Of a stretch of 46,660 bases of DNA, positions 4,855-46,660 are shown in pieces. The stretch covers positions 70,709 through 117,368 of the forward strand of contig JAHDVX010000011.1 of the NCBI GenBank assembly GCA_023382455.1, given 5' to 3'. Origin of the DNA: Flavobacteriales bacterium. Lineage in GTDB: Bacteria; Bacteroidota; Bacteroidia; Flavobacteriales_F; PHOS-HE28. Every line of letters begins with the position of its first letter. The stretch's first letter is position 1. Under the pieces are notes generated by a model. It was given only the letters and a program-made list of their open reading frames with translations. It made no database searches and was not told where the DNA came from. Position numbers and translations under genes: made by a program.

Positions 4855-5499
4855 TCAGGATTGCTCCATCACGGCGGCCCGCACCCAGTGCGAGATCTCC
4901 GCTGCCCGGGTAAGCACCATGATGTGCGCCCCGCCCGGCACCACATGGTCGGCGGGAAAGCGCAAGGGGATCACATGGTCCGCGCTGCCGTGGATGCGCA
5001 CCACGGGCCCGGTCCAGCGCGAACCGCTCCAGCGTAACACGGCCTGCACCCCGTGGCGGATCTTGGTGGCCGTCTGCTGCCTGGCCATGTCGAACAGCAG
5101 GCGGTCCGTGGCCCGGTCACGCTGCCCGAGTATGCGCTTCAGTGGCCAGGTGGCGCGCATGGTGAACCCGGTGATGAGCACGGACAAGCCCAAGGTCCTG
5201 GCCATCCGCACGAACGGCGTGAACTCCTGCGGACCCTTCCACGTGGAGATCAGGATCACCTTTTGCGGTTTCGTAAGCAGCGCCAATTCCTGCGCCACCA
5301 TGCCGCCCATGCTCACCCCGCCGAGGATGTGCGGACGGTCGGCATCCACCTGCGGGCGCATGGCCTGCGCCAACTCCACCAAGGTGCATCCCTTTGGGAA
5401 GGGCGGCCATTCCAGGTAGCGCACATCCAAGCCCGCAAGCTCCAGCCGGCCGAAGAGCCGATGATCGCAGCCCACGCCGGGAAGGAGGTAGAGGGTCAT
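4855..5499 (-). CDS. alpha/beta hydrolase
   Basis: A 214-residue alpha/beta hydrolase without signal peptide. The nucleophile elbow is GVSMGG with Ser63. The likely acid is Asp174 in HGSADHVIP and the likely base His192 in GGAHIM, which gives a complete triad. The N-terminus (LLPGVGCDHRLF) forms the oxyanion region. The substrate is unknown. The start codon lies only 4 bases from a period-8 repeat tract (5504-5557) that separates it from hutH upstream on the same strand. It converges with the DUF4159 gene; the gap is 44 bases. Confidence 0.88.
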   Translation of the reverse strand: MTLYLLPGVGCDHRLFGRLELAGLDVRYLEWPPFPKGCTLVELAQAMRPQVDADRPHILGGVSMGGMVAQELALLTKPQKVILISTWKGPQEFTPFVRMARTLGLSVLITGFTMRATWPLKRILGQRDRATDRLLFDMARQQTATKIRHGVQAVLRWSGSRWTGPVVRIHGSADHVIPLRFPADHVVPGGAHIMVLTRAAEISHWVRAAVMEQS

Positions 5500-5503
5500 G
5501 GGC

Positions 5504-5557
5504 GATCAGAGGATCAGAAGATCAGACAATCAGAAAATCAGAAGATCAGACGATCAG
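5504..5557. repeat. Period-8 tandem tract RATCAGAN between hutH and a hydrolase gene
   Basis: Six full octamers and a partial one of consensus RATCAGAN run without interruption (GATCAGAG, GATCAGAA, GATCAGAC, AATCAGAA twice, GATCAGAC, GATCAG). The TGA stop codon of hutH (5556-5554, minus strand) is made from the terminal repeat unit. The tract ends 4 bases before the ATG of the hydrolase. A second tract of the same unit lies at 46572-46630. Confidence 0.85.
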
Positions 5558-7041
5558 TTGCGGGAGGAACGGATGAAGGCAAGCGACTTCTCCATCAGGT
5601 CGTGCATCACCACATCGGCCTTCACGAAGGGCACGTGCTTGCGGAAGGCGGCATGCAGCTCATCCAATCCCTTGGCGCTCTTCAGCGGCCTGCGGAAATC
5701 CAGCGCCTGGGCGGCGGTGAGGAGTTCGATGGCGAGGATGCGTTCCACATCCTCCGCCACGGCCCAGGTCTTGAGCGCGGCGGCGGCGCCCATGCTCACA
5801 TGGTCCTCCTGGCCGTTGCTGCTGTCGATGGTATCCACGCTGTTGGGCATGCAGCGCTGCTTGTTGGCGCTCACCAGCGCGGCGCTGGCGTATTGCGGGA
5901 TCATGAAGCCGCTGTTGATGCCCGGCTCGGCCACCAAGTAGGCCGGCAGGCCGCGCTGCCCTCCGATCAGCTTGTAGGTGCGGCGCTCGCTGATGCTGCC
6001 CAGTTCCGCCAACGCGATGGCCAGGAAATCCAGCGCCAAGGCCAAGGGTTGGCCGTGGAAGTTGCCCGCGCTCACGATCAGGTCCTCATCGTCGAACACG
6101 GTGGGGTTGTCGGTCACGCTCTCCATCTCGCGGCCCACCACGCGTTCCACGTAGGCGAAGGCATCGCGACTGGCCCCGTGCACCTGCGGGATGCAGCGGA
6201 AGGAATACGGGTCCTGCACATGTTTCTTGGCGCGCTTGGCGATGGCGCTGCCCTGCAGCAGTTCGCGCATGCGCGCGGCCACCACGGCCTGCCCGGGATG
6301 CGGGCGCACGGCATGCACCGAGGCGTTGAACGGTTCCGTGCGTCCATCGTAGGCGTCCAGTGACATCGCCGCGATGGTATCGGCCAGGTCGGCCAGGCGC
6401 GCGGCCTTCAGGCTGAGCAGCGCCGCAAAGGCGCACATGAACTGCGTGCCGTTGAGCAAGGCCAGGCCTTCCTTGGGGCCGAGTTCCAAGGTCTCCCAGC
6501 CCAGTTGCTTCAGCGCTTTCGCGGAAGGCATGCGCGTGCCCTTCAGCACCACCTCGCCCAGGCCAAGCAACGGCAAGGCCAGGTGCGCCAGCGGGGCCAG
6601 GTCGCCACTGGCGCCGAGCGAACCGCGCTCGTACACCACGGGCAGCATGTCCGCATTGTACATGTCGATGTAGCGCTTCACGGTGGCCGGGGCCACGGCG
6701 CTGTGGCCGAAGGCCATGTTCTGCACCTTCAGCACCAGCATGGCGCGCACCACTTCCGCGTCCACCGGTTCACCGGTGCCGCAGGCGTGGCTCATCACCA
6801 GGTTCTTCTGCAGCTGCGCCAGCTTGTCCTTGGGCACGGAGGTATCGGCCAGGGAGCCGAATCCGGTGTTGATGCCGTAGATCGGCGCATCGCTCTTCTT
6901 CAAGCGGTCGCGCAGGTAAGCATGGCTGCGCTTCACGGCCTGTTGCGCATCCTTGGCCAAGGCGATGGGCCTGCGTTCGGACAAGATCAGCTCCAGCTCA
7001 TTGAGCTTGACGCCGATGGTAGTGATGGGGTGGGTGGGCAT
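5554..7041 (-). CDS. hutH: Histidine ammonia-lyase
   Basis: A 495-residue enzyme of the MIO aromatic ammonia-lyase family, about the usual 500-510 residues. The Ala144-Ser-Gly triad (GSLGASGDLAP) cyclises to the methylidene-imidazolone cofactor. Tyr55 lies in YGINTGFG. The selectivity motif SHACGTG (residues 84-90) and QEDHVSM near the C-terminus are of histidine type rather than tyrosine or phenylalanine type. The reaction is L-histidine to urocanate plus ammonia. No hutU, hutI or hutG is near. The ATG at 7041 was preferred to a TTG at 7056 that would overlap the upstream gene; the gap to higA is then 11 bases. Its stop codon lies inside a repeat tract. Confidence 0.92.
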   Translation of the reverse strand: MPTHPITTIGVKLNELELILSERRPIALAKDAQQAVKRSHAYLRDRLKKSDAPIYGINTGFGSLADTSVPKDKLAQLQKNLVMSHACGTGEPVDAEVVRAMLVLKVQNMAFGHSAVAPATVKRYIDMYNADMLPVVYERGSLGASGDLAPLAHLALPLLGLGEVVLKGTRMPSAKALKQLGWETLELGPKEGLALLNGTQFMCAFAALLSLKAARLADLADTIAAMSLDAYDGRTEPFNASVHAVRPHPGQAVVAARMRELLQGSAIAKRAKKHVQDPYSFRCIPQVHGASRDAFAYVERVVGREMESVTDNPTVFDDEDLIVSAGNFHGQPLALALDFLAIALAELGSISERRTYKLIGGQRGLPAYLVAEPGINSGFMIPQYASAALVSANKQRCMPNSVDTIDSSNGQEDHVSMGAAAALKTWAVAEDVERILAIELLTAAQALDFRRPLKSAKGLDELHAAFRKHVPFVKADVVMHDLMEKSLAFIRSSRN

Positions 7042-19914: not shown

Positions 19915-19922
19915 TACCTTTG
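19915..19922 (+). promoter_or_regulatory. Promoter -7 box TACCTTTG of the SRP RNA
   Basis: TACCTTTG is an exact match to TAnnTTTG. Four bases follow before the first paired base of the SRP RNA (19927), which gives an internal calibration of start-site spacing for this genome. Confidence 0.7.
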
Positions 19923-19926
19923 TCGC

Positions 19927-20024
19927 GGGGCAAGTCTTGTACGTCCAGCTCCTGCTGAACCCCCCAGGGCCGGAAGGCAGCAAGGGTAGGCGGTTGTAGC
20001 GGAGCGATATAAGGAGCTTGCCCC
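19927..20024 (+). ncRNA. ffs: Signal recognition particle RNA (4.5S-like)
   Basis: The RNA component of the signal recognition particle, which binds Ffh and directs nascent membrane proteins to FtsY. The 5' and 3' ends pair over eight bases (GGGGCAAG at 19927-19934 with CTTGCCCC at 20017-20024). The conserved Ffh-binding hairpin is visible at 19967-19986, with a GGAA tetraloop at 19972-19975 and the AGCA bulge side (GGCAGCAAGGG). About 98 bases is close to the usual ~100 for the bacterial short form. A TACCTTTG promoter lies 4 bases upstream, and a T-rich stretch (20025-20033) follows. It sits between a T9SS cargo gene and an SDR gene on the same strand. Confidence 0.85.
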
Positions 20025-20033
20025 TCTTCTTTT
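20017..20033 (+). terminator. 3' end and T-rich tail of the SRP RNA
   Basis: The terminal helix of the SRP RNA is followed by TCTTCTTTT, which would act as a U-rich release tract. The SDR gene begins 11 bases further on, so some read-through into it is likely. Confidence 0.5.
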
Positions 20034-44624: not shown

Positions 44625-45926
44625 ATGCACACCCCGGACCAACCGCTCTTCCACGACTTCTTCACGGTGCATCTGCCGCGTTTCCTTGCCCGGCTGGGCC
44701 TGGGCGGCGGCCAATTGGACTGGCTGACCACCACGGCGGGCGTGCTGCTGGTGGCATTGGCCTTGTGGCTGCTCACCCTGGTGCTCAGCTGGTCGCTACA
44801 GCGCCTGCTGTCGCGGATCTCCCTGACCACGGATTCCAACTTCGACGACAACCTGGAGGCGCAGGACGTGCCGCGCTACCTGGCGCGCATCATCCCACTG
44901 GTGCTCGGCTTCAACCTGATCCCGTCCGTGCTGGAGCTCCACCCGCGGTTGATCGGCGTAACGGAGAAGCTCTTCGCCATCTTCTTCGTGGTGCTCGCCG
45001 TGCGCATTGCGCGGGCGGTGCTGTATGCGGGCCTTGACACGCTGCAGCAGATGGACAACTACCGGGGCAAGCCCTTGGGCAGCTACGCCCAAGTGATCTC
45101 CCTGCTGCTGTACATCATCGGGGGACTGGCAGTTTTCTCCCTGTTGACCGGGCGGTCGGTGATCACCTTCCTGGTGAGCATGGGAGCGGCCTCGGCGGTG
45201 CTGCTGCTCATTTTCAAGGACACCATCCTGGGCTTCGTGGCCAGCATCCAGATCAGCGCCAACAACATGGTGCGCATCGGCGACTGGATCGAGATGCCGA
45301 AGTACGGCGCGGACGGCGATGTGGTGGAGATCAATCTCACCACGGTGAAGGTGGAGAACTGGGACAAGACGATCACCACGGTGCCCACCTACGCGCTGAT
45401 CAGCGACTCCTTCAAGAACTGGCGGGGCATGCAGCAGTCGGGCGGGCGGCGCATCAAGCGGAGCATCCGCATCAAGATGAGCTCCATCCGCTACCTCAAC
45501 GAAGCCGAGGTGGATGAACTGCGGAAGATCGAGCTCCTGACGGATTACATCGATGAGCGCCGCGAGGAGATCAGGCAGTACAACGCCACACACCAGGTGG
45601 ACAAGAGCGTGCTTGTGAACGGCCGGAACCTGACGAACGTGGGCCTCTTCCGCCGCTACATGGAGCGCTATGCGCTGGAAAACCCGGGCATCAATCCGGA
45701 CATGTCGCGCATGGTGCGCCAACTCCAACCCGATGACAAGGGCCTGCCCTTGGAGTTGTATTGCTTCACCAGTGACGTACGCTGGGTACCGCATGAGCAA
45801 TTGACGGCCGACATATTCGACCATTTGCTGGCCTCCATCTCGTATTTCGGGCTGGAGGTGTTCGAGTCGCCGGCGTCGGATGACCTGCGCTCACTCACCA
45901 AAGACCTTCAACCCCGATCGACATGA
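44625..45926 (+). CDS. Mechanosensitive ion channel (MscS family), longer form
   Basis: A 433-residue MscS-like channel. Four or five membrane helices (about residues 35-190) end with the pore helix [27 protein letters not shown] cytosolic domain follows ([32 protein letters not shown]), and a longer C-terminal region of about 130 residues includes [13 protein letters not shown]. It is related to the gene at 39497 only by family. It overlaps lolD by 4 bases (ATGA), so the two form one translation-coupled pair. It opens under membrane tension. Confidence 0.9.
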
Positions 45927-46570
45927 TCAAGGCAATAGGGATCCGCAAGCGCTTTGGTGACCTGGACGTGCTCAAGGGCGTGGACCTGCACGTGGTCCAA
46001 GGCGAGGTGGTGAGCATCGTGGGGGCCAGCGGCGCGGGCAAGACCACGCTGCTGCAGATCATCGGTACGCTGGAAAAGGCCGATGCCGGCACCTTGTTGA
46101 TCGATGGCACGGAGCTGACCAAGCTGGGCGGCAAAGCCTTGGGCAATTTCCGCAACCAGCGCATCGGGTTCGTGTTCCAGTTCCACCATCTGCTGCCGGA
46201 GTTTTCCGCACTGGAGAACGTGATGATGCCGGGCCTGATCGCGGGGCGCAGCATGAAGGAATGCACGCCGCGCGCCGAGGAACTGCTGCAACGCCTGAAT
46301 GTGCTGGCCCGCAAGGAACACAAGCCCAACCAGCTCAGCGGCGGCGAGCAACAGCGCGTGGCCGTGGCCCGGGCGCTCTTCAACAACCCGGCCGTGGTGC
46401 TGGCCGATGAGCCCAGCGGTAATCTGGACAGCGCCCATGCCAAGGAGCTGCACCAGCTCTTCTTCGACCTGCGCAAGGAGCTGGGCCAAACCTTCGTGAT
46501 AGTGACGCACAACGAGGAGCTGGCCAACATGGCCGACCGGAAGCTGGTGATGCGGGACGGGGTGATCTGA
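45923..46570 (+). CDS. lolD: ABC transporter ATP-binding protein, LolD-like
   Basis: A 215-residue ATPase of the MacB/LolD group. The Walker A motif is GASGAGKT (about residues 34-41), the Q-loop [18 protein letters not shown], the signature LSGGEQQR, Walker B VVLADEP, and the H-loop VTHNEEL. LolD works with LolC/E to release lipoproteins from the inner membrane, and the fit in length and ALENVMMP region is good; MacB/FtsE-type ATPases look similar. The start overlaps the MscS stop by 4 bases. The period-8 repeat follows the stop by one base. No membrane partner is in the window, so it could also serve the permeases at the left end, but this is unlikely. Confidence 0.85.
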
Positions 46571-46571
46571 T

Positions 46572-46630
46572 GATCAGAAGATCAGAAAATCAGAGGATCA
46601 GAAGATCAGACAATCAGACGATCAGATCAG
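46572..46630. repeat. Period-8 tandem tract RATCAGAN after lolD
   Basis: Seven octamers of the same unit as at 5504-5557 (GATCAGAA twice, AATCAGAG, GATCAGAA, GATCAGAC, AATCAGAC, GATCAGAT) begin one base after the TGA of lolD and end CAG. The orientation relative to the gene before it is opposite to that at hutH, where the tract is antisense to the gene. Confidence 0.85.
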
Positions 46631-46660
46631 GGTGTCGGTTGATCGGATGATGGAAGTGCC

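Follow-up and report, generated by a model that had tools for sequence, protein, structure and literature searches.

A tract of tandem octamers was found directly behind a lolD-like gene of a Flavobacteriales bacterium, and the chances are about even that it forms an arm of a dispersed element with inverted repeats, similar in structure to the intervening sequences (IVSs) of 23S rRNA; the arm would stand either alone or with a partner beyond the contig end. A full element would consist of two arrays inverted relative to each other, both built from a 7-8 bp word and reading RATCAGAN...spacer...NTCTGATY in this species. Longer copies would hold between the arms a gene of the S23p family (the 23S rRNA intervening-sequence-protein family PF05635/TIGR02436, a four-helix-bundle protein); most copies would be gene-less and many would be single arms. 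The element family is probably mobile and palindromic, with a word that turns over between species, and the dispersed hairpin element is probably selfish. The relevant features of the analyzed stretch of 46,660 nucleotides (the window) are as follows.

4855..5499, minus strand: alpha/beta hydrolase gene, 4 bp from the front end of the 5504 tract
5504..5559, plus strand: second RATCAGAN tract of seven units, with no visible partner
5554..7041, minus strand: hutH (histidine ammonia-lyase), at the rear end of the 5504 tract
45923..46570, plus strand: lolD-like ABC ATPase gene, at the front of the 46572 tract, best model TIGR02211 (match below the model's curated cut-off)
46564..46571, plus strand: degenerate in-phase unit GATCTGAT, overlapping the end and the stop of the lolD-like gene
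46572..46627, plus strand: RATCAGAN tract, seven units, putatively one arm, with its NTCTGATY strand reading leftward into the lolD-like gene at its 3′ end
46646..46660, plus strand: GATGATGGAAGTGCC, weakly like the AATGGAATGCC word found behind some tracts (3 mismatches in 10)

The lolD-like gene ends with the stop codon TGA at 46568-46570 and the units start at 46572, so that the tract does begin one base after the stop, as the initial annotation had stated. The units run in the order GATCAGAA GATCAGAA AATCAGAG GATCAGAA GATCAGAC AATCAGAC GATCAGAT. Eight in-phase 8-bp steps span 46564-46627, the seven from 46572 being exact RATCAGAN, and Tandem Repeats Finder reports a repeat of period 8 at 46564-46626. 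GTGATCTGA is the usual end of the lolD-like gene in the genus. Since the contig ends 33 bp past 46627 (window position 46660), a partner of the tract, if there is any, lies beyond the contig end. In 30 orthologous lolD ends read by eye, the array has 7 units in G000 and 8 in G031, is shorter in G027, G017, and G036, and is left only as remnants in G034, G006, and G018; at most of the other ends it is absent or unlike. In four genomes (G036, G024, G044, and G037), the region upstream of lolD contains a TIGR02436 match, at a distance of about 170-340 bp.

Both the reading of the units and Tandem Repeats Finder bear out that the same octamer recurs at 5504. The annotation had also given both tracts an edge at a stop codon. 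This is not a shared rule, because the front of the 5504 tract faces the hydrolase gene, whose start codon is 4 bp away, and the tract meets the hutH stop only with its rear end, which overlaps it. A scan of 15 sources against Rfam gave no family over the tracts and no rRNA around them; the sole match was an SRP RNA, the Bacteroidales small SRP RNA (RF04183, 106 bits) at 19921-20027 of the window (plus strand).

It had been argued that two tracts of one unit are unlikely to arise by chance, and the whole genome supports this, with 57 two-unit and 31 three-unit exact matches to RATCAGAN versus none to the reversed pattern. There are many tracts beyond the two; my grouping of the two-unit matches gives 22 clusters. 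Of 45 genomes of the genus, 34 carry three-unit tracts; in a sample of 396 genomes from the class, 18 do so, namely 17 of 20 genomes of the genus itself and one of 376 others. The first base of the unit was G in 373, A in 78, and another base in 4 of 455 units from 18 genomes, and the last base was A in 175, C in 111, G in 42, and T in 127. Unit positions 2, 3, and 6 were each altered in at most 2 of the 455 units, a constancy that is overstated because the detector rejects any unit with more than one core mismatch. Thus the first and last bases vary and the ATCAGA core is kept within this genome, as proposed, but the core is not universal, since G024, another species of the genus, has RATGTGAN arrays instead (32 three-unit matches). 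Arrays resembling RAGGTGAN were seen by eye in G018 as well. Some spacers of G024 (L296, L304, L307, and L309) contain GCGAGCGAAGCGAAGCAA-like repeats.

One word at many loci of a species does imply spread or homogenization between loci. Between the arms of a pair, however, no homogenization was found in 11 pairs, 526 of 2000 random pairings being equally similar. In 287 kb of this genome comprising 146 intergenic regions, a lag-8 array was found in one region only, at 5504, while 100 regions around lolD or hutH of relatives gave a lag-8 signal 8 times and a lag-7 signal 7 times. Heptamer arrays of GGTACNG and GACAACY lie between genes near the lolD or hutH of relatives (L174, L175, L182, L195, and L198), and some of them stand in inverted pairs. 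Arrays of ATTTGA are nearly absent (1 of 33 genomes).

The placement statistics rest on 105 tracts of at least three units in 18 genomes. The sample comprised 68 stretches from 17 genomes, among the clusters listed, with nine omitted that all lie less than 2 kb from a contig start; genes were called by my own script, and arms were read by eye in several of the comparisons below. Eleven tracts lie inside genes and three have no neighbour, leaving 91 intergenic tracts. Their NTCTGATY-reading (front) end lies at a median distance of 7 bp from a gene and the rear end at 138 bp, and the front gap is the smaller one in 74 of the 91. The front often stands 3-4 nt before an ATG or 0-6 nt after a stop; other front gaps are 16-25 nt with a possible -7 promoter word between. 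The front gene edge is a start in 57 cases and a stop in 34, close to the background availability, so that stop codons were rejected as the anchor that the annotation had seen in them. Seventeen tracts lie between divergent starts and eight between convergent stops.

Where two tracts lie on opposite strands less than 250 bp apart, they invariably read RATCAGAN...NTCTGATY (17 of 17), and each of these arm pairs folds better than shuffles (z from -3.4 to -8.1). No compensation was found between the variable bases of paired arms. A partner arm is present in 26 of the 76 rear flanks of at least 30 bp. In the remaining 50, opposite-strand units numbered 28, against 32 on the same strand and 24 in shuffles, which is no excess. 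Thus, worn partners at single tracts were rejected, as the opposite-strand excess stems from the 26 paired flanks, and confidence in the IVS-like explanation was lowered. The inverted pair is the rule where a pair exists, and solo tracts are the majority. A word resembling AATGGAATGCC (0-2 mismatches, offset 0-2) stands directly behind 17 of the 105 tracts versus 5 of 5000 random places, the word having been chosen from the same tract data; within 70 nt behind the tract it is found in 24 of 105. A longer repeat, GGGCGTGCC...CACGC, is common in spacers (L235, L236, L279, and the HPPD upstream loci), and Rfam gave no match for it in L235, L236, and L279. Two other ideas on the arrays were discarded: stops in three frames on the inward strand are not a general rule, since RATGTGAN and RAGGTGAN lack them there, and Rho loading or insulation was dropped by argument, as it would agree with the pyrimidine richness of the inward strand but not with the presence of tracts within genes.

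All 11 tracts inside genes are in frame, with RATCAGAN on the coding strand every time, as expected from the TGA that the opposite strand carries in each unit. The genes include mfd and that of DNA polymerase III alpha, dnaE (both by Pfam matches), and a beta-ketoacyl-synthase-like gene (named by eye) has the tract at the same place in G002 and G018. In mfd, a linker after LGFRKVF (L316-L345) has RATCAGAN...NTCTGATY arms in G000, G038, G022, and G017 and the left arm only in G025, whereas most other species have inverted arrays of different 7-8 bp words there and G015, G039, G003, G029, and G023 have none or little, all as read by eye. Inverted arms of the linker exceed all 30 controls in 21 of 29 parsed genomes (G000 is not among them). 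Laid on the mfd tree, the arm word requires 20 changes, the shuffled mean being 21.3 and 40 of 200 shuffles being as low. Judged from these sequences, with many forks of the tree weak and the word labels assigned by eye, the arm word does not follow the mfd tree but changes faster than it.

Upstream of HPPD, the arms enclose a gene in some genomes. The order in seven of the 30 examined (G000, G018, G031, G038, G043, G001, and G002) is HMGD, a RATCAGAN arm, an S23p gene, an NTCTGATY arm, and HPPD. The gene matches TIGR02436 (E 4.8e-21) and PF05635 (E 1.2e-17) and has a solved relative, 2rld (E 1.6e-19). The same interval has arms around another ORF in G023, is 32-35 bp long in G014, G025, G032, and G015 (with two leftover units in G025), is 120 and 234 bp long without arms in G017 and G005, and holds 764-1344 bp of other sequence in G034, G033, G019, and G040. 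At 12 of the 30 HPPD loci, HMGD was not found within the stretch examined. TIGR02436 matches occur in 44 of 45 genomes of the genus versus none of 14 control genomes, and include all seven HMGD-HPPD copies. The flanks of TIGR02436 genes reach an inverted-repeat score of at least 18 in 17 of 30 cases; among 113 other small genes, 4 do so (p 3.6e-7). When compared with shuffles, 15 of 27 loci exceed all 40 controls and 12 do not (three of the 30 are without an ORF). The arms around these genes are mostly arrays of 7-8-mers of various words. A subterminal sequence is common to the gene-bearing L254 and the gene-less L257, L255, and L260, with 0-1 mismatch in 20 fixed places, this shared word too having been picked from the data in which it was counted.

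Within the genus, the link between RATCAGAN and S23p rests on one locus and possibly goes back to one old insertion. Few tracts are close to an S23p gene; with my own model for the gene, this was the case at 4 of the 106 loci among the matches listed (which stay outside the tract statistics) and at 4 of 86 loci of the genus. In L032, from a metagenome-assembled genome (MAG) labelled Saprospiraceae, nine AATCAGAC units lie 6 bp from an S23p ORF. In L123 (4500-5930), from a MAG labelled Levyibacteriota, four AATCAGAC units are in frame in a thioredoxin-reductase-like ORF (named by eye), and about 370 bp past the array there is an S23p gene between inverted heptamer arms. Among the matches listed from the open-access PMC literature, no link of S23p genes outside rRNA with short tandem arms was found.

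The element resembles the 23S rRNA IVS of Coxiella, which, in the available excerpts of PMC4990558, has complementary ends with an S23p-family gene between them, and tandem heptamers in strain-dependent number near the 5′ end, before that gene. In the same way, the ends of the present element would pair as an RNA stem, with an S23p gene optional in the loop; ends able to form such a stem are seen at the 17 paired tracts but not at solo tracts, and the gene at the HMGD-HPPD locus. It differs in its many and mostly gene-less copies, in its longer end arrays, and in its location in intergenic and protein-coding DNA. The copies that were examined are located within protein genes or between them, not in 23S rRNA, and so they are not IVSs proper. 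Copies would move or be copied between loci and be tolerated in intergenic DNA and in in-frame coding linkers, the S23p protein or a partner may act on the arms, and array length would change by slippage.

Rickettsia palindromic elements (RPEs) were reportedly described by Ogata in 2000. Like RPEs and bacterial MITEs, which according to the excerpted text of PMC2229807 are short palindromes found in intergenic DNA and, in frame, within conserved protein genes, the present element occurs as a palindromic in-frame insert in a conserved protein gene (mfd of G000 and G017). RPEs are families of fixed sequence, whereas the present arms are built of tandem arrays and differ in their word from species to species. 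The paired tracts have the terminal inverted repeats and dispersed non-autonomous copies of MITEs, but many copies are single-armed. No target-site duplication, transposase, or sign of movement was noticed at the copies examined.

The anatomy of the tracts, their fixed orientation and pairing potential, the filled and unfilled sites, the in-frame copies, and the turnover of the word were observed. Since arms are inverted, forms with and without the gene exist, sites are filled or unfilled, copies are in frame, and each species has one word, a dispersed IVS-like element is the simplest explanation. The solo tracts are a real weakness of it; they may be worn copies or arrays of another role. They would fit better if the arrays were cis-regulatory, with an RNA- or DNA-binding factor near gene edges setting translation or insulating genes. 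The close spacing of tracts from starts (often 3 nt) and from stops (2-6 nt), with its fixed orientation, also speaks for such a role. A close parallel comes from Beggiatoaceae, cyanobacteria, and five Bacteroidetes, whose TAACTGA direct repeats (MacGregor 2015, PMC4679880, as far as the excerpted text goes) are a short tandem word mostly just upstream of genes and oriented toward their starts, for which a regulatory role was proposed in Beggiatoaceae. In Flexibacter litoralis one set is reversed just after a stop. These repeats differ in being 7 bp long, uniform in word, and mostly at starts, while the present word is RATCAGAN with period 8 at 57 starts and 34 stops; the excerpts report one inverted repeat, in BOGUAY, and draw no link to S23p. 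A regulatory array would hardly track the mere availability of starts and stops (57:34), lie inside coding genes (11 of 105), or change its word between species of a genus and, at one site, between near relatives, so this explanation is unlikely.

Neutral local satellites, born by slippage in unconstrained DNA and thereby ending at gene edges and varying in length, would account for the tract before the hydrolase gene, with 7 units here and 11 in G034, and for the 30 lolD ends with the array present, degenerate, or absent (by eye). Independent births would yield neither one word at 22 clusters nor a fixed orientation (17 of 17 pairs) nor a gene between arms, which makes such an origin rather improbable. 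Bidirectional terminators or other selected intergenic hairpins are very unlikely: the arm pairs fold strongly and one symmetric case lies between two stop codons (L282), but of the 91 tracts, 17 are flanked by divergent starts and just 8 by convergent stops, copies are found inside mfd and dnaE, and the arms show no compensation at the variable bases.

The IVS-like explanation can be taken further, with decreasing confidence. Tentatively, a general class of IVS-like tandem-arm elements could explain many orphan four-helix-bundle genes and intergenic heptamer arrays, though the odds are somewhat against it. It is highly doubtful that these belong to a widespread class of RNA-based selfish elements outside rRNA genes, in which an Avd-like S23p protein would bind the stem and hand it to a reverse transcriptase in trans; repeated short-template synthesis would then copy the arms, giving a constant core, two variable bases, and drift of the word between species. 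The excerpts of PMC10053308 liken Avd of diversity-generating retroelements to PF05635, to which the gene between the arms belongs. If true, the IVS-like explanation would join three puzzles, namely the orphan four-helix-bundle (23S IVP) genes, the oriented intergenic heptamer and octamer arrays of no known function, and the unusual low-complexity linkers of Mfd and other conserved proteins, all of which one kind of element could explain. The mfd linker is a site at which the turnover of the element may be followed species by species.
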